A DNA stretch of 64,000 bases from Gammaproteobacteria bacterium (GTDB lineage: Bacteria; Pseudomonadota; Gammaproteobacteria; Pseudomonadales; Halieaceae). The position numbers and the translations under genes were made by a program. Positions 4,590-61,313 of the stretch are shown here, piece after piece. The number at the start of each line of letters is the position of its first letter. The first letter of the stretch is position 1. The DNA lies in contig JANSYN010000003.1 of NCBI GenBank assembly GCA_024742415.1, positions 124,001 through 188,000 on the forward strand, written 5' to 3'. The notes under the pieces are model-generated. The model was given only the letters and a program-made list of their open reading frames with translations. It was not told the DNA's origin and made no database searches.

Positions 4590-5663
4590 ATGAGCAACAT
4601 CGAAGTACATAACGTCAACGTAGATTCCCAGAATGTCCTGATTACGCCGGACGAGCTGAAAAGCGCCTTGCCCATGTCAGAGTCGATCCACAATATGCTG
4701 GTGGACAGCCGCGAGGTCATTGAGGACATTCTGGAGCGCAAGGATCCCAGGATTTTTGTTGTGGTGGGGCCCTGCTCAATACATGACCCGGCTGCCGCGA
4801 TGGATTATGCGCGGCGCCTGCAAGCGCTGGCTGAAGAGGTCTCGGATACCCTTTATATCGTGATGCGAGTGTATTTTGAGAAGCCGCGCACCACCGTGGG
4901 ATGGAAGGGCCTGGTCAATGATCCCCACCTGGACGACTCCTTCAAGATCGAGGAAGGCCTGCATATAGCGCGCAAGCTGTTGCTCGACATTCTCGATCTG
5001 GGCCTGCCCACGTCCACGGAGGCGCTGGATCCTATTTCTCCCCAGTATTTGCAGGATCTCATTAGCTGGACGGCCATAGGGGCACGCACCACCGAGTCGC
5101 AAACACATCGCGAAATGGCCAGTGGGCTGTCTTCAGCTGTCGGTTTCAAGAATGGGACGGATGGCGGCCTGACCGTCGCTATCAATGCCCTGCAGTCTGC
5201 TGCCAAGCCGCACCGCTTCCTGGGCATTAATGGCCAGGGGCAAGTCTCTGTCTTCACTACCCGCGGTAATCCCTATGCACACATCGTGCTGCGCGGTGGC
5301 AGCAATGGGCCAAACTATGATTCCGTGCACATCAAACTGGCAGAAGACGCGCTTGAAAAAGCGGGCGTTTCGAAAAACATCATGGTTGATTGCAGTCATG
5401 CCAACTCCAATAAACAACCCGAGTTGCAGCCACTGGTGGCAGAAAATCTGTGCAACCAGATTATTGAGGGCAATCAGTCCATTGTCGGCCTTATGATCGA
5501 GAGCAACATAGAAGCGGGTAACCAGTCCATCCCGGATGACCTGAGTGCACTTCGGTATGGCGTCTCTGTGACAGATGGTTGTATCGATTGGCCCACGACT
5601 GAGCGCTGTATTCTTGATATGCGTGACAAGCTGCGAGGGGTGCTACCTGACAGAATTGACTAG
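4590..5663 (+). CDS. 3-deoxy-7-phosphoheptulonate (DAHP) synthase, class I
   Basis: 357 residues, the size of E. coli AroF/AroG/AroH. It condenses phosphoenolpyruvate and erythrose 4-phosphate, the first step of the shikimate pathway. Seen: the GPCSIHD motif near residue 62 (metal-ligand Cys), KPRTTVGWKG near 100 (PEP binding), KNGTDG near 190 and DCSHANS near 270 (metal-ligand His). The start ATG follows a weak AGG six bases or more upstream. It is a single-gene unit divergent from the AddB-like gene. Which aromatic amino acid inhibits it cannot be told from sequence, so no isoform symbol is given. Confidence 0.95.
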   Translation: MSNIEVHNVNVDSQNVLITPDELKSALPMSESIHNMLVDSREVIEDILERKDPRIFVVVGPCSIHDPAAAMDYARRLQALAEEVSDTLYIVMRVYFEKPRTTVGWKGLVNDPHLDDSFKIEEGLHIARKLLLDILDLGLPTSTEALDPISPQYLQDLISWTAIGARTTESQTHREMASGLSSAVGFKNGTDGGLTVAINALQSAAKPHRFLGINGQGQVSVFTTRGNPYAHIVLRGGSNGPNYDSVHIKLAEDALEKAGVSKNIMVDCSHANSNKQPELQPLVAENLCNQIIEGNQSIVGLMIESNIEAGNQSIPDDLSALRYGVSVTDGCIDWPTTERCILDMRDKLRGVLPDRID

Positions 5664-6661: not shown

Positions 6662-9600
6662 ATGGGCAGCGAAAACACAGCCATCAGCCAGCTTGAACAG
6701 GCGCTGCAACAGCGCATTCTGGTGATCGATGGCGCTATGGGCACCATGATCCAGGCGGAGAAGCTCGAAGAGGCCGATTACCGCGGCGAGCGCTTTGCCG
6801 ATCACCCCTCAGACCTCAAAGGCAACAACGAGCTGCTGAGCCTGACGCGTCCGGACATCATCGCCAAGATACACCGCGCCTACCTGGAGGCAGGCGCTGA
6901 CATCATCGAAACCAATACTTTCGGTAGCACGACCATCGCCCAGGCTGACTACGCCCTGGAGCACCTGGCGGTGGAACAGAATCTGGCATCTGCGCGGTTG
7001 GCGCGCGAGGTTGCCGATGAAATTACCGCCCTGGACCCGGATCGGCCGCGGTTTGTTGCCGGTGTGCTGGGGCCAACCCCGAAAACGGCGTCGATCTCCC
7101 CTGATGTGAACAATCCGGGGGCTCGCAGTATCACCTTTGACCAGCTTAGCCAGGCCTATGCCGAGGCTACCCGTGCGCTTATAGAAGGCGGCGCTGATCT
7201 CATCATGATCGAAACCATTTTCGACACCCTGAACGCAAAAGCAGCGATCTTCGCGGTCAGGCAGGTGTTTGATGAGATCGGCAAAGAGCTGCCGATTATG
7301 ATTTCGGTGACCTTTCCAGACATCAGCGGGCGCGTGTTGTCCGGGCAGAATCCCGAGGCATTCTGGAATGCGATCGCGCACGCGCGCCCCCTCATCGTTG
7401 GTAGCAACTGTGGTCGCCGGTACAAGGAAATCCGCCCCTTCGTCGAAGAGCTGTCCAACGTGACCAGCGCCTACTTCAGCGCGCACCTGAACGCCGGATT
7501 GCCCAATGCCTTTGGTGACTTTGACGAAACCCCGGACATCATGCATGACGATTACGCCGAGTTTTCCAGCCGCGGTTTTTTGAACCTGGCGGGCGGCTGC
7601 TGCGGTACTACGCCTGCGCACATCGCGGCTATCGCCGCTGCCGTCGCCGAGGCGAGTCCGCGGCCATTACCTGCCCACCCCGGGGCCTGTCGCCTCAGCG
7701 GACTTGAGCCGTTCAACATTACCCACGACAGCCTGTTTATCAATGTCGGAGAGCGCTGTAATGTCACAGGTTCCGCCAAGTTCAAGCGCCTGATCCTGGA
7801 AGGCAGTTTTGAGGAGGCGCTGGATGTTGCAAGGGCGCAGGTTGAAGACGGCGCACAGATTATCGACGTCAACATGGACGAAGGCATGCTCGATGCCAAG
7901 GAAGCCATGGTGACCTTCCTCAATCTTATTGCATCGGAGCCTGATATTTCCCGCGTCCCGATTATGGTGGATTCCTCGAAATGGGACGTCATTGAAGCCG
8001 GCTTGAAGTGCATCCAGGGCAAGGCAATCGTCAACTCCATCAGCCTCAAATCTGGCGAGGAAGAGTTTCTCGCGCAGGCTAAACTGTGCCAGCGTTATGG
8101 CGCGGCCGTCGTTGTTATGGCATTTGATGAAGAGGGTCAGGCAGACTCTGTCGAGCGGCGCAAACAGATCTGCAAGCGCAGTTATGATCTGTTATTGCAG
8201 AAACTGGACTTCAATCCCCACGATATTATTTTCGACCCGAATATTTTTGCCGTTGCCACCGGTATAGAGGAACACAACAACTACGCGGTTGATTTCATCG
8301 AGGCCACCCGCTACATCAAGGCTGAGCTGCCCGGCGCGCTGGTGTCGGGTGGCGTGTCCAACGTATCTTTCTCGTTTCGCGGTAACGATGCAGTGCGCGA
8401 GGCCATCCACTCCGTTTTCCTTTACCACGCGATCAAGGCGGGAATGGATATGGGTATTGTCAATGCCGGTCAATTGGCGGTCTATGATGAGCTGCCCGAA
8501 GACCTGCGTGATGCGGTAGAGGATGTCATCCTCAATCGCCGGGACGATTCCACTGAAAGGCTGCTGGATGTTGCCGATCGTTATCGGGATACCGGCAGCG
8601 GCGAGGGCCGCGTAGAAGATCTCGCCTGGCGCGAGGCTGATGTCGCAAAGCGGCTCGAGCATGCGCTGGTAAAGGGTATTAACACTTACATCATCGAGGA
8701 TGCCGAAGAGGCAAGGCTGCAGTTTAACCGGCCCATCGAGGTGATCGAGGGGCCACTCATGGATGGCATGAACGTCGTTGGTGACCTTTTCGGCGATGGC
8801 AAGATGTTCTTGCCGCAAGTGGTCAAGAGCGCGCGCGTAATGAAGCAGGCGGTCGCCCACTTACAACCGTATATCGAGCTGGAAAAAGACGAAGGTAGCT
8901 CAACCAATGGCAAGATCCTGATGGCCACGGTCAAGGGTGACGTGCACGATATTGGCAAGAACATCGTGGGTGTTGTACTGCAATGCAACAACTTTGAGGT
9001 GATCGACCTGGGTGTCATGGTGCCCTGCGAAACCATCCTTGAGACTGCGCGTCGCGAGAAGGTCGACATTATTGGCTTGAGTGGCCTGATTACTCCGTCG
9101 CTCGATGAAATGGTGCATGTTGCGAGCGAAATGCAGCGTCTGGATTTTAACGTGCCGTTGATGATCGGCGGCGCCACGACGTCCAAGGCACATACAGCGG
9201 TTAAGATTGAACCGCAGTACGACCGCGATGTTATTGTCTACGTTCCGGATGCCTCGCGCAGCGTCTCGGTAGCCACGCAGCTAATGAGCGATACCAAGGG
9301 CGCCTATGTCGATGCGCTCAAAGAGGATTACGCGATCGTTCGTGAACGTGTCAAGAACAGGAAGCCAGGCGCCCCCGCCCTGCCCTATGAGGACGCCGTA
9401 GCCAATGGCATTCAGCTGGATTTCAGTGATTACACGCCTCCGGTGCCGTCATTTCTGGGAACCCGTATCTATGACAACTATCCCCTGGAGAACCTCATAG
9501 ACACCATCGACTGGACCCCTTTCTTTATTACCTGGGAGCTTTCCGGTAAGTACCCTGCGATTTTGCAAGATCCAGTAGTTGGCGAACAGGCCACAGAGCT

Positions 9601-51286: not shown

Positions 51287-51518
51287 TGAGGTCTCTCTCC
51301 AGGTTGAAGGTCAGGTCCAACGGAGTCTGCACTATACCAACACCGGCGCGACGACGCCCGCAGGAGCGGTGATTCTATGCCCAGCATCGGCGCTTCGCCA
51401 ATCAATTGCAGCGCGTTTCGTATCAGGCCCAGCCTGGTGATGTGCTTGCCAGTGGAGCTGTGTCTGCTATGGTGAATATACCAGCTTGTCTGCCAGCTCA
51501 TCTGGGGAGCAGCCGCTC

Positions 51519-52097
51519 ATGAAACAGCTAACCATAGCCAGCGTTGTATCGATATTATGCGGGATGTCACTCGCGGCGGTAAGCCAGCAGGAAGTGTCAC
51601 TGATCTGGTCCGGGACTACGGGCACCGGGACGCCAGGCTCTGGTACAATTTTTGTCAACGCAGGTGACGAGTTGACCCTGGATATCCTCGTCAAGGATAC
51701 CGGGTGTGAAGGCTTTCTGGGCGCCGCCGCAGGTGTAAGCTGGGATGATGTGGTTCTCACGGGTTTTAACGCCATGGAATGCCCCACCCCGGAAAACCCG
51801 CTCGGCCCAGGTTTGTGCAGCGATTCCAGTGAGAAGATTTTGACGTCGGTATTGCCCGGGGTGGACGAGACGCCAGGGCTCGCCGTCGGGTTTGAGGCTA
51901 TCAACATTGTCTCGACCGAGCCCGCATTTGTGTGCGAGACGATGTACCTGGGGCGGACCCAATTCATCGTTGAATCTGCCGCCAGCAGTGAACTGGCAGT
52001 GGCGCTGCGCGTGGGCGATGGTGTCATCCAACCCGATTTTTCCATTACGACGCCGGCAACGGTGTCTGCGTTTATCGAACCTGCGCCAGGTTGTTAG
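51519..52097 (+). CDS. Secreted protein with signal peptide, cohesin-like sandwich, unrecognised
   Basis: 192 residues from the ATG at 51519 (GGGAG upstream). A signal peptide (MKQLTIASVVSILCGMSLAAVS) is followed by a Thr/Gly-rich beta-pattern: SLIWSGTTGTGTPGSGTIFVNAGDELTLDILV (about 25-56) and five cysteines in the mature part. The alternation of polar and hydrophobic residues suggests a cohesin- or Ig-like beta-sandwich. There is no anchor at the C-terminus. It is the last host gene before the integrated element. Confidence 0.65.
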   Translation: MKQLTIASVVSILCGMSLAAVSQQEVSLIWSGTTGTGTPGSGTIFVNAGDELTLDILVKDTGCEGFLGAAAGVSWDDVVLTGFNAMECPTPENPLGPGLCSDSSEKILTSVLPGVDETPGLAVGFEAINIVSTEPAFVCETMYLGRTQFIVESAASSELAVALRVGDGVIQPDFSITTPATVSAFIEPAPGC

Positions 52098-52109
52098 GGT
52101 GCTGCGAAG

Positions 52110-52165
52110 TGGTGCGAGTGGCGGGACTTGAACCCGCATAGCCGTTAAGCCGTCAGATTTTAAGT
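52110..52165 (-). repeat. att site: displaced 3' fragment of tRNA-Leu(UAA)
   Basis: 56 bases identical to 61227-61282. They cover the anticodon loop through the 3' CCA of tRNA-Leu, but the 5' half is absent, replaced by unrelated sequence after 52165. This is the original host 3' end left at the far side of the insertion. Confidence 0.95.
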
Positions 52166-52279
52166 TAGTTTTTCAGGCATTCTGTAACATTCTGAAAAAT
52201 AACGCTTTTCCTAAACAATTCGCCCTAAACCTCTGTTTTATATGCAAATAATCTATTAACAACCGTTAAACAAGATTAA

Positions 52280-52308
52280 TTGACGTTCCCTGCTATTAGC
52301 CGCAAAAT
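52280..52308 (+). promoter_or_regulatory. Integrase promoter candidate
   Basis: TTGACG (52280-52285), 17-base spacer, CAAAAT (52303-52308). The -10 box touches the TGTGTCC repeats, so integrase bound there could repress its own gene. Confidence 0.45.
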
Positions 52309-52345
52309 GTGTCCAGAGTGTGTCCCAACGGTTTGGGACACATTT
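52306..52345. repeat. Arm-type integrase site candidate, left (TGTGTCC repeats)
   Basis: Two direct TGTGTCC copies, then an inverted copy forming the hairpin TGTGTCCCAA-CGGT-TTGGGACACA. The first 23 bases (52306-52328) recur with two mismatches at 61130-61152 near the other end of the element. Confidence 0.6.
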
Positions 52346-52416
52346 AAAATCGGCTTCGGGGGTGCACTAACACCACCCGAAACCTGACCGAAATTCACTA
52401 GATTGAGGTAGTGAAA

Positions 52417-53700
52417 ATGGCTGCACAGGATTCTACCACCGCCAAACGCAAACAGCAGGACAAGAAAACGCTACGCTTCAACAAAGATGCGCTGAACGCC
52501 CTGCCCGCCCCTGCGACCCGCGTCTACTTGTACGACGACAAAGTGCCGCAACTGGGCCTGATCCACCACCCGGCGACAAAAACCCACCCCGAAGGCAAGA
52601 AAGTCTTTTTTGCCCGCGTCACGTTTGATGGGCGCACGGAACGCTGGCGCATCGAGAACGGCGTATTTCCCGGTATGCCGATTGACCTAGCACGAGAACG
52701 GGCGCGAGAGCATGTGACCGCTGCCGCCCAGGGCACGCACCCGATCAAAGCGAAACGGGCGAAGAAAGCCGCCAAGGCGGTTTCGGGCCTGACTGTTGAG
52801 CAGGCACTAGACCTGTTTGCTGAAAACAAAGTACGCCGACTATCAACCGGCGAAAAACTGCCATTGAAACCGCGCACCATTGCGGCCTATCGGCATTCAA
52901 TCAGGAAGCTGCTAGGCGATGACCTTTACGCTGGGCCGCTGAACCAGATCACCGAAGCTGTTCTAACGAAACGAGTACAAACGCGGGAGAAAGTCGCCAA
53001 GACCGCCACCGCTGGGGCGCTACGATCACTGTCTGCCGTGTGGAACTGGCTGGGGCGACAGCGTGAGTACCGGGAGCAACTGCCCGATAACCCGGTTAGA
53101 GAATATTCCCGTTATAACGAGGGGCTGCATGTGCCCGCCCCGAAAAAGGGCCGCATAGAAAAGGATGAACTGCCCGCATGGTTTGACGCTGTGGAGGCGC
53201 TGCCGGCCATGTATGCCGAGTATTACCAATGGCTTTTATTCACCGGCACCCGTACCGGCGAAGCCAGGGGGCTAGATTGGCAAGATATAGACTTTAAGCG
53301 CAACGTCTACCACCTGCGCGACCCCAAGAATCGCCGCCCCGCTTCCCTGCCCCTACCGTCAGTCATTGGCGCGAAGCTAAAAAACCGAAAGCAGGACGCG
53401 GGTAAGGTGTTCACCTTCGCGGATGACCCGAAGCGCCAGCGTAAAAAAGTAGTTGATGCGCTAGGGAAACATTGGACGAACCACGATCTGCGCCGAACAT
53501 TCGCGGGCGTGGCTCAGGCAGTGTGCAGTTATACCAGCGTCAAGCGATTGCTGAATCACACCTTCACGGATATTACGGAGCAATACATAGGCGAAGCCGC
53601 CGACCTGGGCGAAGAAATTGCGAAGGTTGAACGGGAGCTATTGCGGCTGGCTGGCCGACCGCTGAACAACGTGGTGGCGCTGCGAGAGGTGAAGGCATGA
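52417..53700 (+). CDS. Tyrosine recombinase/integrase of the satellite
   Basis: 427 residues; ATG 52417 has GAGG eight bases upstream, better than the GTG two codons earlier. An N-terminal DUF4102-like arm-binding part (DDKVPQLGLIHHP, FARVTFDGRTERWRIENGVFPGMPIDLARERA) is followed by a SAM-like core-binding domain. Catalytic residues: Arg in TGTRTGEARGL near 278, HDLRR near 356, His in LLNHT near 379 and Tyr in EQYIGEA near 389. It catalyses integration and excision at the tRNA-Leu att sites. It faces into the element and overlaps the next gene by 4 bases. Confidence 0.95.
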   Translation: MAAQDSTTAKRKQQDKKTLRFNKDALNALPAPATRVYLYDDKVPQLGLIHHPATKTHPEGKKVFFARVTFDGRTERWRIENGVFPGMPIDLARERAREHVTAAAQGTHPIKAKRAKKAAKAVSGLTVEQALDLFAENKVRRLSTGEKLPLKPRTIAAYRHSIRKLLGDDLYAGPLNQITEAVLTKRVQTREKVAKTATAGALRSLSAVWNWLGRQREYREQLPDNPVREYSRYNEGLHVPAPKKGRIEKDELPAWFDAVEALPAMYAEYYQWLLFTGTRTGEARGLDWQDIDFKRNVYHLRDPKNRRPASLPLPSVIGAKLKNRKQDAGKVFTFADDPKRQRKKVVDALGKHWTNHDLRRTFAGVAQAVCSYTSVKRLLNHTFTDITEQYIGEAADLGEEIAKVERELLRLAGRPLNNVVALREVKA

Positions 53701-54122
53701 GCAAACCCGACAAGCGCAAGCCTCCCATCAGCTACAAATTTTCAATTGATGATGGTACAGATGTGCAGCTTTCCCCGCATGAATACCGCCAAGAGCGAAT
53801 GAAAGAGGCTGTCAGAATGGCGCGCTCCGATGACGCACGCTACCGGCGCCATGGTGAGCTACTGCTGGCAAAGCTGACCGGGGCCAGCGATGAGGCACAT
53901 ACAGTTGATTTGAGGCGCAAACTAAACAGCATTGAAAAGCGAAAGAAGCAGCGCGACGAAATAGCGCTAGCTGTAAGAGAAAAATACTCTGAGCTAATAA
54001 CCGCCGGTAAGGCACCGCGTGAAACCACCACACTTATCGTCCAGCATTTAGAGAGCAAAAACACGCCTCGCGGGCGTGATTTTATATTGGAAGTTCTGAG
54101 AGAGGCCGGACTGCGAGATTGA
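53697..54122 (+). CDS. Satellite protein of unknown function, charged
   Basis: 141 residues; ATG overlaps the integrase stop (ATGA). It is very rich in Arg, Lys and Glu, with a predicted helical middle (LRRKLNSIEKRKKQRDEIALAVREKY, about 82-107) that could form a coiled coil, and LSPHEYRQERMKEAVRMAR earlier. I recognise no family. Its coupling to the integrase suggests a role in recombination or in regulating it. Confidence 0.7.
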   Translation: MSKPDKRKPPISYKFSIDDGTDVQLSPHEYRQERMKEAVRMARSDDARYRRHGELLLAKLTGASDEAHTVDLRRKLNSIEKRKKQRDEIALAVREKYSELITAGKAPRETTTLIVQHLESKNTPRGRDFILEVLREAGLRD

Positions 54123-54230
54123 AATACGGATTTGTCACAAGCCCGCATGTAATCCACCTAACTTGCTAGTAAACACAGATTAGGGGCATATAGTTCTAGA
54201 CCATCTTAGTTAATTACCGAGGTGGTTTAA

Positions 54231-54464
54231 ATGTCACACCAAGCCCTATCCCAGCACGGACTTTCCGACGAAGAATTTCTCGCTGATCTTTGCGACGATA
54301 ACGAACTTGCCCGCATTCTGCGAGTGCAGCGCCAAAGCATCCCGGTAATGCGATGCCGAGGGAAGCTGCCGATACCGACATATCGCCTAGGCCGCAAGAC
54401 GCTTTCAAGCCGCAGCGCAGCGATTGAGTTACTGCGACAGAGCCGAGTCAGATATGCGCAGTGA
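54231..54464 (+). CDS. AlpA-like helix-turn-helix regulator
   Basis: 77 residues. NELARILRVQRQSIPVMRCRGKLPIPTYRLGRKTLSSRSAAIELL (about 25-69) has the layout of the AlpA/excisionase (HTH_17) family: helix-turn-helix, then a short wing ending in a helix. In satellites such proteins activate or direct excision. AGG precedes the ATG after a 107-bp gap that probably holds its promoter. It overlaps the primase start by 11 bases. Confidence 0.75.
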   Translation: MSHQALSQHGLSDEEFLADLCDDNELARILRVQRQSIPVMRCRGKLPIPTYRLGRKTLSSRSAAIELLRQSRVRYAQ

Positions 54465-55221
54465 GGTTGCCGCCGCCGCACAGGGCCGCTGGCCGCAAAT
54501 CCATAGTGCTGCGGGAATCCCGCCGGGGTTTCTACGCAACCGGCACCAACCCTGCCCCATGTGCGGGGGGCGCGACCGTTACCGCTACGACGATAAAGAC
54601 GGGCGCGGCAGTTACTACTGCAACCAGTGCGGTGCAGGCGATGGCTTTGCCTTGCTGATGCAGTATCACGGATGGGACTTCGAGAAAGCCGCCGCCGAGG
54701 TATCCAGCATCTTGGGGCACAACCCAGCGCCCACCGTGACGCCGAAACCTGCACCGCGCAGCACTGCACAATACGCGGAGAAACTATGGCAGGCCGCGCT
54801 CGCTGATGATGCTGCTGTGGCCGCTCACCCGTATGCAATCCGCAAGCGCATCACACACGCCGCAGCCGCCGCCAGGGGCCGCGCCAGCGGTAAGCTAATA
54901 GGCAGGGATGCCGATTGCGTGATCGTCCCGCAACGAACGCTAGCGGGCGACTTAGTCGGTGTGGAGTGCATCGACTGCGAGGGCGTTAAACAGAGCTTCG
55001 GGCGCAAGGGCGTATTAATCCTAGGCAATGATCTGGACGCCAAGCTGCCGCAACTGATTGTAGAGGGCTGGGCAACCGCTGTCGCAATCCTGGGATTCTA
55101 TCACTGGAATGCGTGCGTATATGCGGCTTTCGGCAGGGGCAAGCTGGAGCCGCTGGCCTGCGAGTTAGCGGCAAAGTATCCAGATCGCACCGTCATTATT
55201 GGGGGGGAGCGCGATGCCTGA
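54454..55221 (+). CDS. Satellite primase with zinc finger and Toprim-like region
   Basis: 255 residues from MRSEVAAAAQGRW; a start ten codons earlier is possible. A zinc finger CPMCGGRDRYRY...YYCNQCGAGD is near 35-63; LIVEGWATAVAILGF near 205 is the Toprim glutamate motif. The product ends at GGERDA exactly where the Toprim DxD motif would be, in a run of seven G. This is the P4/T7-type DNA primase architecture used to start satellite replication. It overlaps the helicase gene by 8 bases. Confidence 0.85.
   Translation: MRSEVAAAAQGRWPQIHSAAGIPPGFLRNRHQPCPMCGGRDRYRYDDKDGRGSYYCNQCGAGDGFALLMQYHGWDFEKAAAEVSSILGHNPAPTVTPKPAPRSTAQYAEKLWQAALADDAAVAAHPYAIRKRITHAAAAARGRASGKLIGRDADCVIVPQRTLAGDLVGVECIDCEGVKQSFGRKGVLILGNDLDAKLPQLIVEGWATAVAILGFYHWNACVYAAFGRGKLEPLACELAAKYPDRTVIIGGERDA
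55201..55207 (+). other. Seven-G run at the primase-helicase junction
   Basis: ATT ATT followed by GGGGGGG 14 bases before the primase stop. A one-base slip here would join the primase frame to the helicase frame. Confidence 0.9.
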
Positions 55222-56446
55222 CCTACCGCCGAACGTGAAGCGAATCGAGCAACCCGCCACTGCCGCAGGTAATGACGCCGCCGACTGGCAGGACAACCCC
55301 GAGGCTGTCGCTGCATTTCGGGAGTTGGTGAGCGCCGCGATTGCACCCGCACCGCACCCGCTGAAAAGCAAAACCGTGACCTTGAGCCTGGACAACATAC
55401 AGCGGCGACCCATACCGCGTGAGCTTTTGTGTGGATATTGGCCTGCTGGCGCAACGTCTGCCGTTGTCGCTATGGGAGGTGTCGGTAAAACGACATTTTT
55501 AATGCAGACGGCCGCTAACTATGTGTCAGACAGTCTGCACTGCATGTTTGTCACCGCCGAGGACTCACCCGAGGACTACCACGCCAAGCTGCACAATTTG
55601 CTGTTTACCGATAAGGCTTCAACGCTAAATCCCGCAGCCGTGGCCGACAAGATCCATGTGCTGAATCTTCGGGGCGATGGCGTCAAGCTGATTGCCGAAG
55701 CTGGCGGGAGCTTCATGCCGTCAACCGCAGCCGATGATTTAGCAGTATTCATTACCGAGAACTACCCGAAGGTGCGAGTAGTGTTTTTTGAAACGGTGTC
55801 GCGCTTTGCTGGCGGTGAAGATAACGACCGCATGGAGGCCGTTGTAAGCGCCTGCGACCGTATCGGCGTGGCAATCAATGGCGCTTGTGTGCTTGTCCAC
55901 CACACCGGCAAGGGCCAAGCCAGGGACAAGGTTATCGACCTGTACGCGGGCCGTGGTGGCTCTGCATTGGGCGATAACACCCGCAGCATGATTGTCCTGA
56001 CTCGACTGGATAACGAATATCGCGGTGCGCAGCCAATAGTGGTTGACCGTGAAGATATTGATTCTGGCCGAGTGTTTGAAGTTACCCATGTGCGTAACAG
56101 CTATGGGCCAACCCGCGAGCCGCAATACTTCATAACCCGCCAGGGATACTGTCATGGGCCGATACTTGAATCAGTGCCGATTGCGAATGCTGCCGATGTG
56201 ATGCAGGCGAGGCTCGCCGCGATGGATGCCAAAGCAAATGCTGCCGCCAGCAAAATACGCGACATTATCGAATCCAAGCACAGTGTCCCGCGCAAGTTTT
56301 TTGACGCAGGGACTAAATCGCTTATCGGAATCACCCAGGCCGAGAGCCGCGCACTAATCGAAGAAATGCTAGAAACGGGAGCATTGGAGGTAGTCGAGGA
56401 ACCCGCAGGCAAAGCCACCCGCAAGATGCTGAGGTTAGCCAAATGA
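55214..56446 (+). CDS. RepA-like hexameric replicative helicase (RecA-fold ATPase)
   Basis: 410 residues from MPDLPPNVKRIEQ; ATG lies within the end of the primase gene. Walker A is AMGGVGKTTFL near 88-98, the Walker B region is VRVVFFETVSRFAGGEDNDRM near 190-210, and VLVHHTGKGQ near 228 follows, the pattern of the RSF1010 RepA/AAA_25 family. The usual Walker B Asp is Glu here. It should unwind DNA at the satellite origin together with the primase. Its stop overlaps the next small gene (ATGA). Confidence 0.9.
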   Translation: MPDLPPNVKRIEQPATAAGNDAADWQDNPEAVAAFRELVSAAIAPAPHPLKSKTVTLSLDNIQRRPIPRELLCGYWPAGATSAVVAMGGVGKTTFLMQTAANYVSDSLHCMFVTAEDSPEDYHAKLHNLLFTDKASTLNPAAVADKIHVLNLRGDGVKLIAEAGGSFMPSTAADDLAVFITENYPKVRVVFFETVSRFAGGEDNDRMEAVVSACDRIGVAINGACVLVHHTGKGQARDKVIDLYAGRGGSALGDNTRSMIVLTRLDNEYRGAQPIVVDREDIDSGRVFEVTHVRNSYGPTREPQYFITRQGYCHGPILESVPIANAADVMQARLAAMDAKANAAASKIRDIIESKHSVPRKFFDAGTKSLIGITQAESRALIEEMLETGALEVVEEPAGKATRKMLRLAK

Positions 56447-56712
56447 CGCCGCGTGGTTTTAGGCCACACACCGTCACGCGCCGTGTGGGTGGTGGCTTCA
56501 GGAAAGCAGGAAAAAGTAACCCAGCACACACCGCCCTAACGGTGTGTGTGGGTTTATTTTCCTATAGGGCCACACACCGTAAACGGGCCATTTCGCCGGG
56601 CACTCGAAAGCAGGGACAACCGTACCCCCTGGGAAGCCACCCCCCGTCACACGCCGTTAAGTTTTTCGTTCTGATTGTTGCGGCTGTGCTATTTGCGGAG
56701 GCCGCTTTATGA
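56443..56712 (+). CDS. Small ORF spanning the repeat cluster, uncertain
   Basis: 89 codons. Its ATG overlaps the helicase stop and its stop overlaps the next ATG (both ATGA), as real genes in this operon do. The coding stretch coincides with the CACACACCG repeats, the composition is basic and odd, and only a C-terminal hydrophobic helix (AVKFFVLIVAAVLFAEAAL) stands out. It is either a small basic membrane protein or a reading frame kept open only for translational coupling. Confidence 0.4.
   Translation: MTPRGFRPHTVTRRVGGGFRKAGKSNPAHTALTVCVGLFSYRATHRKRAISPGTRKQGQPYPLGSHPPSHAVKFFVLIVAAVLFAEAAL
56462..56580. repeat. CACACACCG repeat cluster, candidate replication origin
   Basis: CACACACCG occurs three times directly (56465, 56525, 56572) and once inverted (56540), with the outer direct copies inside a 13-bp GGCCACACACCGT. 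A degenerate inverted copy (GCCGTGTGG) lies near 56480 and a CACACGCCGT near 56648. Such iterons next to a helicase gene are where satellite or plasmid origins usually lie. Confidence 0.5.
56525..56560 (+). terminator. Hairpin with T-rich tail inside the repeat cluster
   Basis: CACACACCG (56525-56533), loop CCCTAA, CGGTGTGTG (56540-56548), then GGGTTTATTTT. It has the form of an intrinsic terminator for the early replication genes, though it may equally be an origin element. Confidence 0.45.
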
Positions 56713-56942
56713 GGTGGGTTTATAGACTGACATTCACCAATGGCCGCAGAGTCACCTTTCCGAGCGCAGAGCGCATAGATGATTGCCTGGCGCATTTCCA
56801 GGCAAGGTTTGGCGCGGATGCCGTGGCGGGCGTTACAGAGCGTTTTGGCGATGGCGAGCCGGTAGAGCATTACCCGCATGATGACCGCAAGGCCAGAATT
56901 ATGTCGGCAATAGACACTTTTCACAGGAGCGTGAGGCGATGA
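56709..56942 (+). CDS. Small satellite protein, unrecognised
   Basis: 77 residues; GGAGG lies 7 bases before the ATG, and both ends overlap neighbours by 4 bases. The start MRWVYRLTFTNGRRVTFPSAERID looks like a small beta-sheet, followed by helical stretches and a basic end. I recognise no family. Confidence 0.65.
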   Translation: MRWVYRLTFTNGRRVTFPSAERIDDCLAHFQARFGADAVAGVTERFGDGEPVEHYPHDDRKARIMSAIDTFHRSVRR

Positions 56943-57790
56943 CCCGAGCGAGGATGACCAAAGCCGATGTGGCGCAACTTGAGGGGCAGATATACGAAGT
57001 TCTGCGCGAGGATAACCCGCAGTCAGTACGCCATGTGTTCTATCGTATGACCGATCCGCGCTTACCTGTCGCGATACCCAAGACCGAGGCAGGCTATGTG
57101 CAAGTGCAGAACCGCATGGTGAAGATGCGCCGGGCCGGCACTCTGCCGTATGGTTGGGTGACGGATGCGACAAGGCGCGGCTACTTTGTGAACACCTATC
57201 ACAATCAAGCCGATTTCCTGCGCAGCGTGGCAGGATTTTACCGCCGGGATGTTTGGGCCGAGCATGATACGCATGTTGAGGTGTGGTGCGAGTCGCGGTC
57301 AATCGCTGGTGTGATTCAGGAAACCTGCGAAAAATACGCTGTCTCTCTCTACCCGGCTGGTGGCTTTTCCTCTCTCTCGCTCGCTCACCAGTCTGCAAGC
57401 TATATCCAGGGCAGTATCGACTATGGCGACAAGAGCAAGGCGCTAATCCTCTATGTGAGCTATGACCCGGCTGGCGTACTGATTGACCGCAGCATCGAGA
57501 GCGAGCTTGCAGGGCACCTGGAAGGCGTACCGTTGGAGTTTAAGCGCATTGCTATAAATGAGAATCAGATAGCCTATTACGACCTCCCCACTAAACCGAG
57601 GAAGCCAGGCGACCGTCGCGCACAACACGTTATAGCAACGGTGGAGGCCGAAGCCATGCCTGCGCACATTCTGCGCGGCCTGCTAGAAGCCGAACTCGAT
57701 GCACTTATACCGTATCACTATCTCCGGTCATTGCAGGCGGCTGAAGAATCAGAGCGACAAGCGATCAACCTACTGGCGAGCACAATTTAA
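56939..57790 (+). CDS. Spo11/topoisomerase VI A-like protein (Mini-A-like), stand-alone
   Basis: 283 residues. SVRHVFYRM at 29-37 aligns with the Spo11/TopoVI-A catalytic R-x-x-x-Y motif (Tyr35). A winged-helix-like stretch follows (VQNRMVKMRRAGTLPYGWVTD, about 55-76). A Toprim domain then appears: VEVWCESRS with Glu118, YPAGGFSSLS near 138, and the DPxG motif as SYDPAGVLID with Asp176. No B (ATPase) subunit is present. This matches the Mini-A proteins described from mobile elements, whose function is unknown; DNA cleavage during replication or transfer is a reasonable guess. Confidence 0.7.
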   Translation: MTRARMTKADVAQLEGQIYEVLREDNPQSVRHVFYRMTDPRLPVAIPKTEAGYVQVQNRMVKMRRAGTLPYGWVTDATRRGYFVNTYHNQADFLRSVAGFYRRDVWAEHDTHVEVWCESRSIAGVIQETCEKYAVSLYPAGGFSSLSLAHQSASYIQGSIDYGDKSKALILYVSYDPAGVLIDRSIESELAGHLEGVPLEFKRIAINENQIAYYDLPTKPRKPGDRRAQHVIATVEAEAMPAHILRGLLEAELDALIPYHYLRSLQAAEESERQAINLLASTI

Positions 57791-58110
57791 TGGGCGGGCC
57801 TGATAAAGCAATCTGCCCCACCTGTGGCCAACGCTGGAGCGGACAACTCGACAGAGCAAAAGCCGTGCGGGCCGACATCGTGCGGTGGGCAACAAAAAAT
57901 GATGTGAGGATATCGGCTGGTGAGCGCCTGCGAATATCAGACGCTGCACGCTACGCAGACCTCGCGCCGAAAACTTTGCGAAACTGGGCCTGCGCTGACC
58001 CGCCGTTGCCAACACACAAATCCGCTGGGCGCAGCTACGTTACTCTCGCTGAATTTGCTGAATATCTAGTCCGTGTCAAAAATTTTTATTCCCGCGATTT
58101 CCCGCAATAG
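57790..58110 (+). CDS. Zinc-knuckle/HTH DNA-binding protein
   Basis: 106 residues, ATG sharing one base with the previous stop (TAATG). N-terminal CPTCGQRW (half zinc finger), then ISDAARYADLAPKTLRNWACADPPLPTHKSAGRSYVTLAEFAEYL (about 54-98), a helix-turn-helix of the excisionase/MerR-like kind. It stands directly before the capsid operon and next to phased CCCGC repeats, so it may be the regulator of the late genes. Confidence 0.7.
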   Translation: MGGPDKAICPTCGQRWSGQLDRAKAVRADIVRWATKNDVRISAGERLRISDAARYADLAPKTLRNWACADPPLPTHKSAGRSYVTLAEFAEYLVRVKNFYSRDFPQ

Positions 58111-58126
58111 CCCGCGAATGTCCCGC
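58091..58126. promoter_or_regulatory. Four CCCGC boxes at helical spacing upstream of the capsid gene
   Basis: CCCGC begins at 58091, 58101, 58111 and 58122, spaced 10, 10 and 11 bases, so all face the same side of the helix. They overlap the last codons of the HTH gene and lie about 85 bases before the capsid gene. This is an operator-like array. Confidence 0.5.
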
Positions 58127-58207
58127 TGAATCTTGTCTATCAAAAATATTTGAGAAAATCACTGCATAGCGCACCTAGGCGCGATAAACACATATGGAAT
58201 TTAATTT

Positions 58208-59209
58208 ATGACACAAGGCATCCTCTCCAACGAATCGCGTGCTGAGCGGCACATGCTCGCCAAGGCGCTATCCGACACACCCGAGGGCGTCGAAGGCGTA
58301 ATAGCCCGACGATTCCCTTGGGACGAACTTTACACAAAGGCAGCGGCACCCGCGATTTCGGCTGATGGCGTCAACGCGGCTAGTTCCACTTCCGCAGAAT
58401 TCACGCGCCACTTAACGCGCAACTCGGTAGTCGCGGCAATCCTCGACAGAACAATGAAGGTATCCTTTCAAAGCGTATTCAACTCGCCATTCGCGGCACA
58501 GGCTGAATTTGTCCCAGAAGGACACGCAATCCCGGCATTCTCGGATGCGCTCACGCCCTACCTTCTCGATTCCAAAAAAGTCGGCGCTGTGGCTGTGATG
58601 ACCGCTGAAGCACTTCAGCAGGAAAATGCAGAGCGCGCCCTGGCTATGGCGATGTCCGAAACGTGCGGCAACGCGCTGGATGAATATTTTCTTGATGCAG
58701 CCGCACACAAGTCAGACGCACCAACACCGATAACGGTGGGCGCTACCACTATGGCGGCGACGAATGACCCAGCCGCTTCGCTACGCGCACTCATGCGGAA
58801 CCTTTCAAGCTGGTCTAGTCCAGTATTGATTATGAATCCTGAACTGGGCGTGCAACTGAACCTATCGACAGCGGGCGGCGCTTCCCCGTTCGTTGATGTA
58901 GGCGCTTTGGGTGGCACCCTTGCAGGCGTCCAAGTCCTTACGAGTCAATCCGCACCGTTTGATTCATCGGGCGGCGACATCATCTTGATTGACTGCTCCA
59001 GACTAGCGGTGGCGCTGGGTGGCGTTAACATCACTCGCACCACAGAGGCGACTTTGATTCTGCAAGATACCATCGACTCAAACGGAACCGGCGCAGATTT
59101 GGTTTCGCTGTTCCAGGCAGAGGCTGTCGCAATCAAAGCGCTGATGTTTGCTAACTGGGCAAAGCTGGATGATGACGCTGTGCGCGTCTTATCCGGCTGT
59201 GACTGGTGA
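58208..59209 (+). CDS. HK97-fold major capsid protein of the satellite
   Basis: 333 residues. AEFVPEGHAIPAFSDALTPYLLDSKKVGAVAVMTAEAL (about 97-134), a central variable part with VLIMNPELGVQLN, and the end TGADLVSLFQAEAVAIKALMFANWAKLDD (about 296-324) follow the HK97-type capsid pattern (E-loop, P-domain, C-terminal beta strand). The N-terminus is short, with no separate delta/scaffold domain and no protease gene beside it. It would form or alter the capsid shell. The ribosome-binding site is weak. First gene of a second operon. Confidence 0.85.
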   Translation: MTQGILSNESRAERHMLAKALSDTPEGVEGVIARRFPWDELYTKAAAPAISADGVNAASSTSAEFTRHLTRNSVVAAILDRTMKVSFQSVFNSPFAAQAEFVPEGHAIPAFSDALTPYLLDSKKVGAVAVMTAEALQQENAERALAMAMSETCGNALDEYFLDAAAHKSDAPTPITVGATTMAATNDPAASLRALMRNLSSWSSPVLIMNPELGVQLNLSTAGGASPFVDVGALGGTLAGVQVLTSQSAPFDSSGGDIILIDCSRLAVALGGVNITRTTEATLILQDTIDSNGTGADLVSLFQAEAVAIKALMFANWAKLDDDAVRVLSGCDW

Positions 59210-59213
59210 CGTC

Positions 59214-59510
59214 ATGGGGATACATCAACTCAAACAATTAATCGGCGGCATGGGCGAAGTCGTGCGTGACGTCAATTCGGATCTAGAGTCGCGTCTTGAT
59301 GCGAAGCTCGCAGCTCTTGAGGAGCGAATGACAACCGGGATCAACCTTGCCGATTGCTATCAGGGCGCCCACCATCTTGGCAAAGGCTACCGGCGCGGCA
59401 ATCTAGTCACGCATCAAGGCAGTCTTTGGCTTTGCATGGCTGACAGCGACGAACGCCCCGGCCAGTCAAGCGCATGGCGGCTGATTGTTAAAAGAGGCAA
59501 GGACGCATGA
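59214..59510 (+). CDS. Small coiled-coil protein with CBM-like C-terminal module
   Basis: 98 residues from the ATG at 59214, 4 bases after the capsid stop. The N-terminal half (VVRDVNSDLESRLDAKLAALEERM, about 14-37) is a predicted coiled coil. The C-terminal half YRRGNLVTHQGSLWLCMADSDERPGQSSAWRLIVKRGKDA (about 59-98) resembles a chitin-binding-like fold common in phage virion and tail-fibre proteins. It may be a head decoration or a scaffold-like factor; assignment by similarity of pattern only. Confidence 0.65.
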   Translation: MGIHQLKQLIGGMGEVVRDVNSDLESRLDAKLAALEERMTTGINLADCYQGAHHLGKGYRRGNLVTHQGSLWLCMADSDERPGQSSAWRLIVKRGKDA

Positions 59511-59797
59511 CACGAGGTATCGACACGCTCATTAATAGCTACATCACCGCTTTTTATGGAGAGCACGAACCATTGACGAAACTCAAATTGAAGCCCAGCG
59601 AGACACGCCAGTTTTTCATCCTTCGCGGAAAGGCGAAGAAGTTTGGATTGCGCCTCCAACTGGCAAAGAGCGCAGCACAGGCACAGAACGCCGGCGGCAT
59701 GTGTTGGTTGACACTGCCGGGAAGCACTGACCCGCTAGAATCCTTCGCGGAATTTGATGATGCTGCCAAGTTACTAGAAACCATTGCAGCGAATTGA
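59507..59797 (+). CDS. Small satellite protein, unrecognised
   Basis: 96 residues; ATG overlaps the previous stop (ATGA). It is soluble, with KLKLKPSETRQFFILRGKAKKFGLRLQL in the middle (about 24-51) and an acidic C-terminus. Its place between a capsid-associated gene and TerS suggests a virion or packaging role. A nine-G run (59800-59808) follows its stop, ahead of the terS gene. Confidence 0.65.
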   Translation: MTRGIDTLINSYITAFYGEHEPLTKLKLKPSETRQFFILRGKAKKFGLRLQLAKSAAQAQNAGGMCWLTLPGSTDPLESFAEFDDAAKLLETIAAN

Positions 59798-59894
59798 CCG
59801 GGGGGGGGTACGCGAAAGAAACAGAGCAAACCGACAGGACACCGCGCCCTAAGTCTAATTTTCTTTTCTGCAATTTAAATGTTTTGAGGTAACC

Positions 59895-60278
59895 ATGCCA
59901 CGCCACAAGAAACCGCATCATTTAGCATTATTAGACGGTTCAGCAAAGACGAACCCGGCTCGATACGCTAAGCAGGATAGGCAACACCCTGAACCGCTTG
60001 CAGAGCCGCCTAGCTACCTCTCAGAGGCCGAGAGAACGATTTACCGAGAGATTGAGGCCACAGCATTGCCCGGACTTTTGCAGCGCTCAGACAGCGTGTG
60101 TGTTGAGCTTGCGGCAGGTCTGCTGTGCCAGTATCGAGATGACCCGACAGGCTTCCCGGCCAGCAAGTTAACCCTGTTACGCGGCTTCTTTCGCGACCTG
60201 GGATTGACTCCCGACGGGCGGCAGCGCTTTGGTATCGCGCCAGAATCCAAGCACGAGAATGAGTTTGATGTTTTCTGA
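59895..60278 (+). CDS. P27-family small terminase subunit (TerS)
   Basis: 127 residues. HHLALLDGSAKTNPARYAKQ near the start, LSEAERTIYREIEATALPGLLQRSD near 42-66 and LLRGFFRDLGLTPDGRQRFGIAP near 97-119 are the P27/TerS pattern. TerS selects DNA for packaging. The matching large subunit is absent from the element, so it would have to work with a helper phage motor and redirect it to satellite DNA. It comes after the capsid gene, the reverse of normal phage order. GAGG precedes the ATG. Confidence 0.82.
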   Translation: MPRHKKPHHLALLDGSAKTNPARYAKQDRQHPEPLAEPPSYLSEAERTIYREIEATALPGLLQRSDSVCVELAAGLLCQYRDDPTGFPASKLTLLRGFFRDLGLTPDGRQRFGIAPESKHENEFDVF

Positions 60279-60342
60279 CCTTGTGCCCCTTACCACATCC
60301 GCTCTGTGCCAATAGCAGGCTCTTAGTCCCGGCTAACCAGTT

Positions 60343-60813
60343 CTAGATCTGCATACAGGATTCGACCGCATTCCTAATAGCGCTGCTTTGTGGCGGTATA
60401 GAGAACTCGTGCATCGTCATGTTTACTGCGCTCAATCCCTGCCGCCGAACATAAAACTGTCCTCCAGCAAGCAAATGACGGATAGATTGTTCTGCGATTG
60501 GCCCGGTCAATCCAGCCATATAAATTCCATCCCAGCCTTTAACTTGCAGTATAACCGGCTGATTGGATCCTATTTTGAATCTAATAGACTCTGTATCCTC
60601 TTCGGTAGTCATGGAAAGATAGGCTTCCTTCGGGCCACAACCGACCGAGATAGATAGATACACGATCTGGCCATAAGGTGCCGTGCTGCGATCGTACAAC
60701 TCAGCGGATTTCATAACCCCACTAAGGTCAGTATTCATCTGTTCCTGATATCTCCACGGGTCTGTAGTACACGCACATAGAAACACAGTAATTAGAGGCG
60801 CTATCCATCGCAT
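60343..60813 (-). CDS. Predicted lipoprotein, possible cargo of the satellite
   Basis: 156 residues from the ATG at 60813, with AGGAG 10 bases upstream. Signal peptide MRWIAPLITVFLCAC with lipobox LCAC, so a lipoprotein; the mature part begins CTTDPWRYQEQMNTDLSG. It has a mixed beta-rich pattern (VYLSISVGCG, SIRFKIGSNQPVILQVKG). I recognise no family. It is on the strand opposite to the satellite core and just before the right att site, the usual cargo position. A superinfection-exclusion or lysogenic-conversion role is a guess. Confidence 0.72.
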   Translation of the reverse strand: MRWIAPLITVFLCACTTDPWRYQEQMNTDLSGVMKSAELYDRSTAPYGQIVYLSISVGCGPKEAYLSMTTEEDTESIRFKIGSNQPVILQVKGWDGIYMAGLTGPIAEQSIRHLLAGGQFYVRRQGLSAVNMTMHEFSIPPQSSAIRNAVESCMQI

Positions 60814-60875
60814 TTTACGAAATCTCCTATAGGAAGCCGATAAGGCGCCTTTTAACAAAAAAGCGGCCCCCTGCA

Positions 60876-61049
60876 TCAAGTCTCTACACCCTCACTAAAC
60901 GGAATCACCACCGTGGTAGGACTGCCCATCTGATAGCCCACTAAACAACCAGCAATGAACCCCAACACTAGTCCGATTGCAGCACCGACCACGTAAGACC
61001 GCGTGGCGACCTGGCGCATGTGCTTGGCGATGATCTCTTGATTTTCCAT
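60876..61049 (-). CDS. Small membrane protein, 57 residues, possible cargo
   Basis: ATG 61049 to TGA 60876. MENQEIIAKHMRQVATRS is followed by a single helix with small-residue spacing (GAAIGLVLGFIAGCLVGYQMG, split here at about residues 22-42) that could self-associate. It lies 62 bases before the lipoprotein gene on the same strand and is probably co-transcribed. No good ribosome-binding site is seen, which lowers confidence. It could be holin-like or an exclusion partner. Confidence 0.5.
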   Translation of the reverse strand: MENQEIIAKHMRQVATRSYVVGAAIGLVLGFIAGCLVGYQMGSPTTVVIPFSEGVET

Positions 61050-61129
61050 GGTTGAAGGATAGCAAGGTGCGGATTGGTTGGTTACTAGAAGTCATCCCGA
61101 ATACGTAGAACGAAAGCGCGCCTATAAGG

Positions 61130-61152
61130 AATGTGTCCAGAATGTGCCCCAA
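61130..61152. repeat. Arm-type integrase site candidate, right
   Basis: AATGTGTCCAGAATGTGCCCCAA, written as 23 bases at this position, matches 52306-52328 with two mismatches. It stands 75 bases inside the right att repeat. A direct AGCTATTCT pair (near 61161 and 61190) lies between it and the tRNA. Confidence 0.6.
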
Positions 61153-61226
61153 GAGGATCTAGCTATTCTTTCTGTGCTCAGAAAAACCAGCTATTCTCAA
61201 AAACACCTGTATTTATAGAGTTAAAA

Positions 61227-61282
61227 TGGTGCGAGTGGCGGGACTTGAACCCGCATAGCCGTTAAGCCGTCAGATTTTAAGT
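61227..61282 (-). repeat. att site: 3' half of tRNA-Leu(UAA) restored by the element
   Basis: Second copy of the 56-bp direct repeat. It completes the tRNA gene, so integration leaves a functional tRNA. Strand exchange is likely within the anticodon-loop end of the repeat. Confidence 0.95.
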
Positions 61283-61313
61283 CTGATGTGTATACCGATT
61301 CCACCACACTCGC
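61227..61313 (-). tRNA. tRNA-Leu (anticodon UAA), integration target
   Basis: 87 bases with encoded CCA. Acceptor stem GCGAGTG/CACTCGC, anticodon arm TCAGA-CTTAAAA-TCTGA giving TAA, long variable arm, T loop GTTCAAGTC. The 277 bp between it and the transporter gene contain no gene I can support. Confidence 0.97.

Follow-up and report, generated by a model that had tools for sequence, protein, structure and literature searches.

An integrated element of Halieaceae with its own capsid and small terminase: a putative satellite lineage that may build hybrid virions

Introduction

Capsid-forming phage-inducible chromosomal islands (cf-PICIs) supply their own capsid, protease, portal, connectors, large and small terminase subunits (TerL and TerS) and HNH protein, so that tails alone are borrowed from the helper phage (PMC10690885). 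The PLE satellites of Vibrio cholerae remodel the capsid of phage ICP1 (PMC10945586), and in PLE virions the phage tape measure is replaced by that of PLE (PMC12987554). PICMI is a small satellite of marine gammaproteobacteria that encodes an integrase, AlpA and a primase; its insertion site is fis, and no packaging genes could be identified in it (PMC10803314). The present analysis concerns an element at positions 52110–61282 of a 64,000-nucleotide stretch of Halieaceae DNA (contig JANSYN010000003.1 of assembly GCA_024742415.1, positions 124,001–188,000), referred to here as the window. We put at roughly two in three the probability that this element is an integrated satellite whose lineage builds hybrid virions, combining its own shell with the portal, motor and tail of a helper.

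VEIMEs and tycheposons are marine integrative satellites, some of which are said to carry capsid genes. With cf-PICIs, the window element shares an integrated form of about 10 kb, its own HK97 capsid, TerS and primase, and a TopoVI-A-like gene 51–57% identical to that of cf-PICI-like contigs. It differs from them in that no portal, TerL, protease or HNH gene was found, TerS being the only component of the TerL, TerS and HNH set, and in a capsid protein of another group. Like PLE, it would be a satellite that substitutes single virion parts; in contrast to PLE, it has its own capsid gene and a TerS and no tape measure. These comparisons bear out an earlier reading of the window, the first-pass annotation, which had found the gene set unlike PLE and cf-PICI layouts, an own capsid being a feature in common with cf-PICIs. 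PICMI is likewise a small satellite with integrase, AlpA and primase, whereas the window element occupies tRNA-Leu rather than fis, has a zinc ribbon primase part and an AAA_25 helicase rather than a DUF3987/DUF5906 primase, and carries TerS and capsid genes. Pseudomonas phage PAJU2 (Detrevirus), which provides the nearest phage capsid in the tree described below, differs as a full phage with a protease-fused capsid and adjacent TerS, TerL, portal and neck genes.

No remains of the gene order of a complete prophage, the mark of a decayed one, were detected in the element. It does display the features that define the lineage described here: membership of a 14-member capsid group, a short capsid N-terminus, and no TerL or portal found. 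Among the papers listed in literature searches, and in the available portions of papers such as PMC10187409, PMC10872708, PMC11364771, PMC12324425 and PMC12846349, no account of this lineage was recognised. Extended Data Fig. 10 of PMC12987554 presents cf-PICIs with tape measures and might include the lineage.

Structural and packaging genes of the window element

The capsid gene (58208–59209, plus strand), a single-copy gene in the source genome (4.14 Mb, 27 contigs), encodes an HK97-fold major capsid protein with a short N-terminus and no fused protease. This assignment draws on a profile match (phrog_617, 1.8e-12), on the capsid tree and on a Foldseek search with a weak model (mean pLDDT 52, used for the fold only), which placed the protein among HK97-fold capsids (best E 5e-9, TM-scores around 0.4); there was no Pfam match. 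In searches of solved structures, the capsid profile matched Bxb1 (1.2e-10), the 6b0x capsid (1.4e-4) and 8ho3 from DT57C (0.0058), and the capsid protein of the related locus L070 gave no match. A P27-type TerS is encoded at 59895–60278 on the same strand (phrog_83, 2.8e-13); in Pfam it reached just 0.066, to another terminase family.

No TerL or portal gene was detected in the element by tblastn with eight TerL and six portal references (layout was the only basis for naming the TerL references L079 and L088). Profiles and tblastn found no tail gene, protease, HNH or tape measure either, and the strand of the capsid gene has no open reading frame of at least 200 amino acids after it in the element. 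The first-pass annotation had proposed a satellite with its own capsid and TerS and without TerL, portal or tail, a proposal that TerL or portal relics would have undermined; both search methods agree with it, and no such relic came to light.

One short domain was considered as a relic. The gene directly after the capsid gene (59214–59510, plus) encodes a small protein with an N-terminal coiled coil, recognised by eye, whose last 50 or so residues resemble a portal C-terminus (phrog_1289, 3.5e-12); the same C-terminal domain (59358–59504) is like a gp6-like head–tail connector (37% over 51 amino acids) and is of CBM5/12-like type. The portal-relic reading was rejected because the domain is short and of CBM5/12-like type and is conserved within a small gene that follows the capsid in six loci or more (the window, L007, L008, L009, L070 and L089).

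A resident helper was sought in the whole genomes G000, G043, G020 and G304, where neither TerL of phrog_9 nor portal of phrog_12 was matched at an E-value of 0.001; each of these families was matched in 4 of 14 control genomes, and phrog_2 was the only further TerL family searched. The phrog_2 profile had no match in G000 and G304 and five weak ones (6.4e-8 to 9.9e-4) in G020 and G043. By these profiles, the helper is probably not resident in the four genomes.

Insertion site and boundaries

The element lies between direct repeats of 59 nucleotides with one mismatch (52107–52165 and 61224–61282). Their perfect 56-bp core, on the minus strand at 52110–52165 on the left and 61227–61282 on the right, corresponds to the 3´ 56 of the 87 nucleotides of a tRNA-Leu(UAA) gene (61227–61313, minus; TAA in DNA letters), which remains intact at the right end. 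The spacing of the cores gives an element unit of 9117 bp. The ends are thus a perfect duplication of the 3´ part of the tRNA, as the first-pass annotation had described them; it had also pointed to empty sites and to further tRNA-Leu insertions in relatives, and both were found.

The empty site is that of G125 (locus L042), in which tRNA-Leu(TAA) lies 28 bp from dut, the flanking gene of the window element, with no element between. A homologue of the flanking transporter is present in 18 of 18 genomes of the genus, with tRNA-Leu(TAA) beside it in 15 of 16 close-orthologue loci, the window's own counted. In L049, dut is about 0.75 kb from the tRNA; the other loci of the genus, in which dut was not seen within a flank of 1.5 kb at most, neither show nor exclude an empty site. 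A further insertion is L007, in a tRNA-Leu(CAA) gene, with a 36-bp repeat.

A gene of 203 amino acids (51486–52097) also lies between dut and the window element, so that G125 differs from the window by more than the element. The stretch 51287–52109 had no DNA match in the 16 genus loci, whose flanks extend to 1.5 kb at most. A pair of TGTGTCC repeats 11 bp apart (52308–52325, plus) provides candidate integrase arm sites, and a third copy at 61132 (61132–61150) places such repeats near both ends of the element. L007 has ATGCACAT pairs in similar places, noted by eye, perhaps integrase arm sites of different specificity.

Related loci and their gene content

The search of genomes and viromes that the first-pass annotation had proposed yielded 13 loci whose capsids group with that of the window, giving a set of 14 (window, L007, L008, L009, L064, L070, L089, L101 and L114–L119). 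The relatives come from Halieaceae, Pseudomonas, the genus of G304 and two viral contigs. With the capsid as query, 140 genomes of the family gave five matches including the source genome, near ones in G043 and G020 and distant ones in G023 and G135. Five of 390 genomes of the order matched, with G304 counted besides the window's own and three others not counted, and none of the three matches among 369 genomes of the class was counted. A search with a three-row profile recovered L061–L064 in GTDB contigs, which added Pseudomonas sp. BMS12 (L064; L061–L063 are the contigs of L007–L009); viral contigs gave no match with this profile, nor did a scan with the L070 capsid. From IMG/VR came L089, reached through its TopoVI-A-like gene (whole record L100), and L101, 79% identical to L064. 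In the genus of G304, seven of 25 genomes (G304 among them) carry the lineage capsid. The lineage is not confined to marine bacteria, where the first-pass annotation had placed it, as this genus and Pseudomonas sp. BMS12 also harbour it.

Several candidates were set aside. The capsid relatives L010 (G023) and L040 (G135), 28–29% identical in frames of 470 and 458 amino acids, were taken as prophage-type by frame length only; the match in G422 (L071) lay inside an apparent full prophage, as judged from gene assignments made by eye; and G185 and G319, with 461–551 amino acids in their frames, as well as G621 were left out of the member set. L096 (G727) encodes at 7962–9098 a protease-free capsid-like frame of 378 amino acids, nearer to cf-PICI capsids and surrounded by uncharacterised genes, which is possibly another satellite type.

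The nearest whole relative, L007 (G043), is again an element of about 9 kb rather than a full-length prophage, bounded by the tRNA-Leu(CAA) repeat at 5572 and 14408. It keeps the gene order of the window (integrase, g2, alpA, helix-turn-helix gene, capsid, CBM-like gene, TerS), with a D5-type primase-helicase where the window has its own replication genes. L064 is bounded by copies of a 34-bp terminator-like palindrome (5035 and 15738) and not by a tRNA, which brings the insertion sites of the lineage to at least three kinds: tRNA-Leu TAA, tRNA-Leu CAA and a terminator-like repeat.

While capsid is present in 14 of 14 loci by definition of the set, TerL and portal were found in none (0/14 each) in the available stretches, with the tblastn references given above. 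The control contigs L094 and L091 did return TerL and portal, mostly as self-matches, with TerL of L091 also found through a non-self reference at 33%. Frames of at least 200 amino acids located 3´ of the capsid gene on the same strand comprise tape measures, a protease and a 559-residue protein in L101, and frames of 202 (L064) and 221 and 220 (L100) amino acids. The 559-residue protein of L101 (7257–8936), a satellite-sized viral contig, is encoded after the capsid and protease genes and has tail-spike-like profile matches, with a best match of no known function. Tape measures occur in 10 of the 14 loci (L009, L064, L070, L089, L114–L119) and HNH genes in nine (L064, L070, L089, L101, L115–L119). 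TerS was identified in five (window, L007, L008, L089, L101), a count that may miss divergent genes as TerS elsewhere was sought by tblastn with six references only. A small gene directly follows the capsid gene in 13 of 14 loci; its product in L064 resembles the C-terminal tail of the protease of L101, to which the counterparts in L070 and L114–L119 also show matches (31–67%, but just 31–41% in L064, L115, L116 and L118). Taken together, the related elements suggest a partial-capsid parasite lineage rather than a broken phage.

Length of the capsid protein

In the 12 complete capsid proteins of the lineage, the N-terminus is short and no protease is fused, with 61–69 residues before the capsid core in 10 of them. 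The other two, L114 and L119, have 82 and 90 residues when their frames are read from the first possible codon; a later Met would reduce these to about 62. Counted in the same way from the first possible codon, cf-PICI-type rows have 144–173 residues before the core in eight cases and 240 in one. The seven phage, prophage or fusion rows have 157–374. From its residue 4, the L070 capsid protein aligns to the RHph_X2_26 fusion protein from about residue 303, which indicates that the counterpart of the protease and the stretch between protease and shell are missing. Judging from the lengths, we infer that the missing part corresponds to the delta (scaffold) domain. The window element may or may not need the helper protease that the first-pass annotation had listed: its capsid protein is without the part that a protease would remove, yet a protease gene is retained by two relatives whose capsid proteins are equally short.

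A shell protein of this kind might also mix into the helper shell and spoil or resize it, an interference that overlaps with the hybrid-virion reading and does not exclude it. Such a role would be compatible with an element that lacks its own protease, delta part and portal, and other satellites are known to resize helper capsids. Nevertheless, no phage capsid in INPHARED exceeds 31% identity to that of the window, so that co-assembly with the helper, whichever phage that is, is not obvious, and the adjacent TerS suggests packaging. We regard interference as the principal alternative, and an unlikely one.

Origin of the capsid

In a tree of 29 capsid cores, rooted at the midpoint only, the 14 members lie on one side of a branch with support 100/99 (88/99 in an earlier tree with seven members). 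The lineage adjoins PAJU2 (95/93), among phage proteins with a fused protease; the opposite side (100/100) holds nine cf-PICI-type rows and the L031 fusion. Long branches were flagged, the window, L007 and L089 among them, and cf_L077 has an odd composition. Of the cf-PICI rows, L094 and L091 were profile-checked and the other seven were assigned by layout and capsid profile only. The trees do not include L096, L066/L072, L067, L069 or L074, and pro_L071 was dropped from both as its capsid frame is broken.

The element could be a cut-down cf-PICI that has lost protease, portal and TerL. Its TopoVI-A-like gene shares 51–57% identity with genes of 21 viral contigs, of which 16 measure 6–15 kb; nine of the 21 contigs serve as the cf-PICI rows, L089 is a member and eleven were unused in the trees. 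The two that were profile-checked for head genes are both cf-PICI-like: capsid, protease and portal were recognised by profiles in each, together with TerL in L094 and TerS in L091, and the TerL of L091 was found by tblastn. Against this descent, the capsid cores of the lineage fall beside PAJU2-type phages and outside the cf-PICI rows, with the flagged long branches in mind, and the TopoVI-A-like gene is found in only 2 of 12 loci with upstream sequence (window and L089). The reading is weakened accordingly, and we consider it improbable.

It is an evenly balanced proposal that the lineage is separate from cf-PICIs in its capsid, with a PAJU2-type protease–capsid fusion split and trimmed to the shell, joined by an exchangeable selector (TerS, tape measure or, in L089, both) and relying on helper portal and motor. 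Its virions would then be hybrids at the joint between shell and portal. Our confidence in it was lowered because two members retain a protease gene.

Exchange of packaging genes and selection

The clearest case of exchange is found in G020 (UBA5044), which has two elements, L008 and L009, each cut inside the capsid gene at a contig end. They are 94.3% identical over 1395 bp, covering the capsid end, the CBM-like gene and two small genes, and beyond this block nothing is alike within the 3 kb compared. Past it, one element continues with TerS to tRNA-Leu(TAA) and the other with a tape measure of 731 amino acids by a tRNA cluster.

The integration end is also found in other company. L032 (3908–16754), an element of about 12.8 kb inserted in the tRNA-Leu(TAA) gene of a different genome within the family, carries TerL and a 617-residue protein (phrog_5880); no capsid gene was found in it, which makes it a mirror image of the window element. 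L031 has a full protease–capsid fusion and a weak TerS match (phrog_57, 8e-6). Both carry the integrase type of the window element (41–45%, tblastn), so the integration module travels with different packaging genes. By homology, the loci with integrase matches below 35% (L033–L039) share the integrase alone with the window, the exceptions being L039, with a primase, and L037, where a primase match is short and weak.

The ratio of nonsynonymous to synonymous substitution (dN/dS) is about 0.09 for the capsid pair of G020 and 0.02 for the CBM-like gene, but the two small genes that follow reach 0.37 and 0.17. For capsids it is 0.11 between L064 and L101, where dS (1.4) is near saturation, and 0.06–0.08 in three pairs among L115, L116 and L118 from the genus of G304. 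These values (0.06–0.11) indicate that the capsid genes are under purifying selection.

That level of constraint is hard to reconcile with a prophage deletion remnant, in which an integrase end and a few head genes were left by chance. Such a remnant would be consistent with a capsid group adjoining phage capsid genes (PAJU2) and with one damaged motif, that of the TopoVI-A-like protein. It does not readily account for a similar reduced set in 14 loci at three or more kinds of site, for satellite-like primase, helicase and AlpA-like genes, or for the lack of any TerL, portal or tail tube trace with the references used, and we judge it quite improbable. Least probable is an immobile, domesticated encapsulin-like compartment or defence element: encapsulins are among the HK97-fold Foldseek matches of the weak model, whereas sequence profiles point to phage head proteins, and attachment sites, integrase and empty site fit mobility.

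Other genes of the element

The remaining genes on the plus strand begin with a tyrosine integrase of 429 amino acids (52411–53700; PF00589, 7.2e-13; phrog_1, 1.7e-37; Arm-DNA-bind_3, 1.7e-7), followed by the uncharacterised gene g2 (53697–54122; 38% in L007) and a small AlpA-like helix-turn-helix gene (54231–54464; 68% in L007). The latter matches HTH_17 at 0.0043, under the Pfam cut-off, and both small helix-turn-helix or AlpA-like calls are weak (0.0043 and 0.00036 with HTH_17). A primase N-terminal part with a zinc ribbon (54454–55221; PF08273, 6.5e-17; phrog_510, 6.2e-41) and a RepA-like AAA_25 helicase (55214–56446; PF13481, 2.5e-19) come next. Three CACACACCG repeats and one inverted copy (56465–56579) form a candidate replication origin. 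A small uncharacterised gene (56709–56942; 35% in L032) precedes the TopoVI-A/Spo11-like gene (56939–57790; phrog_6247, 1.2e-37), whose protein has V-SYDPAG where 22 other aligned rows have GDxDP(A/S)G, the GDxD motif being replaced by V-SYD; loss of metal binding or a change of role is possible for this protein. The capsid gene is immediately preceded by a helix-turn-helix gene (57790–58110; 31% in L007, 37% in L064, 38% in L101).

Between the CBM-like gene and TerS, a small uncharacterised gene (59507–59797, plus) gave no convincing family in profile searches. On the minus strand, a putative lipoprotein, named by eye (60343–60879), had no family in profile searches, and a small glycine-zipper membrane protein (60876–61049) had weak profile matches; by eye only, the latter resembles small genes located towards this end in L007 and L008.

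The genes named by the first-pass annotation are open, overlap or abut at several places, and were identified by profiles for integrase, primase, helicase, TopoVI-A-like protein, capsid and TerS. Its description of the element as intact is unproven, as the TopoVI-A-like gene lacks the motif of the 22 other rows.

Proposed cycle and weighing of the evidence

By analogy with the PLE tape measure, we propose that the lineage forms hybrid virions. After infection of the host by a helper phage, the integrase and AlpA-like factor would excise a 9.1-kb circle, to be replicated by the element's primase and helicase. The satellite capsid protein, starting about where a phage protease would trim, would build a satellite shell, perhaps assisted by the small capsid-adjacent protein. 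Satellite TerS would then direct the TerL of the helper to satellite DNA, with portal, motor, neck and tail supplied by the helper. In sister elements, a tape measure in the TerS position would set the length of the hybrid tail.

Several observations weigh against this proposal. The cycle is a prediction from sequence. An HK97 protein without delta usually needs a scaffold in trans, in the present case a conjectural one. Separate protease genes occur in L089 and L101, with capsid proteins equally short, which speaks against trimming as a removal of the need for a protease and lowered our confidence in hybrid virions. TerS and tape measure are found together in L089 alone, along with a tail-completion or neck protein (phrog_5), so the two are not strict alternatives. 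The missing acidic motif of the TopoVI-A-like gene counts here too. Six of the 14 loci (L008, L009, L070, L089/L100, L101, L114) end at contig or record ends, and no attachment repeat was found for L101 and L116–L119. IMG/VR yielded no relative in pattern scans that used the capsid or the integrase of the window, and GTDB contigs yielded none in the single-protein scan with the capsid. The satellite interpretation of the first-pass annotation is still favoured, given the lack of TerL or portal relics and a nearest whole relative, L007, that is not a prophage.

Biological significance

The satellites known so far either remodel the capsid of their helper or, as cf-PICIs do, bring a whole head with portal and motor. 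To our knowledge, the joint between shell and portal is in every case either left entirely to the helper or supplied entirely by the satellite. The lineage is frequent enough in the genus of G304 (7 of 25 genomes) for testing. If the hybrid-virion reading is true, an HK97 shell would be swappable under a foreign portal and terminase, and the exchange of TerS and tape measure points to the parts that a parasite gains by owning.

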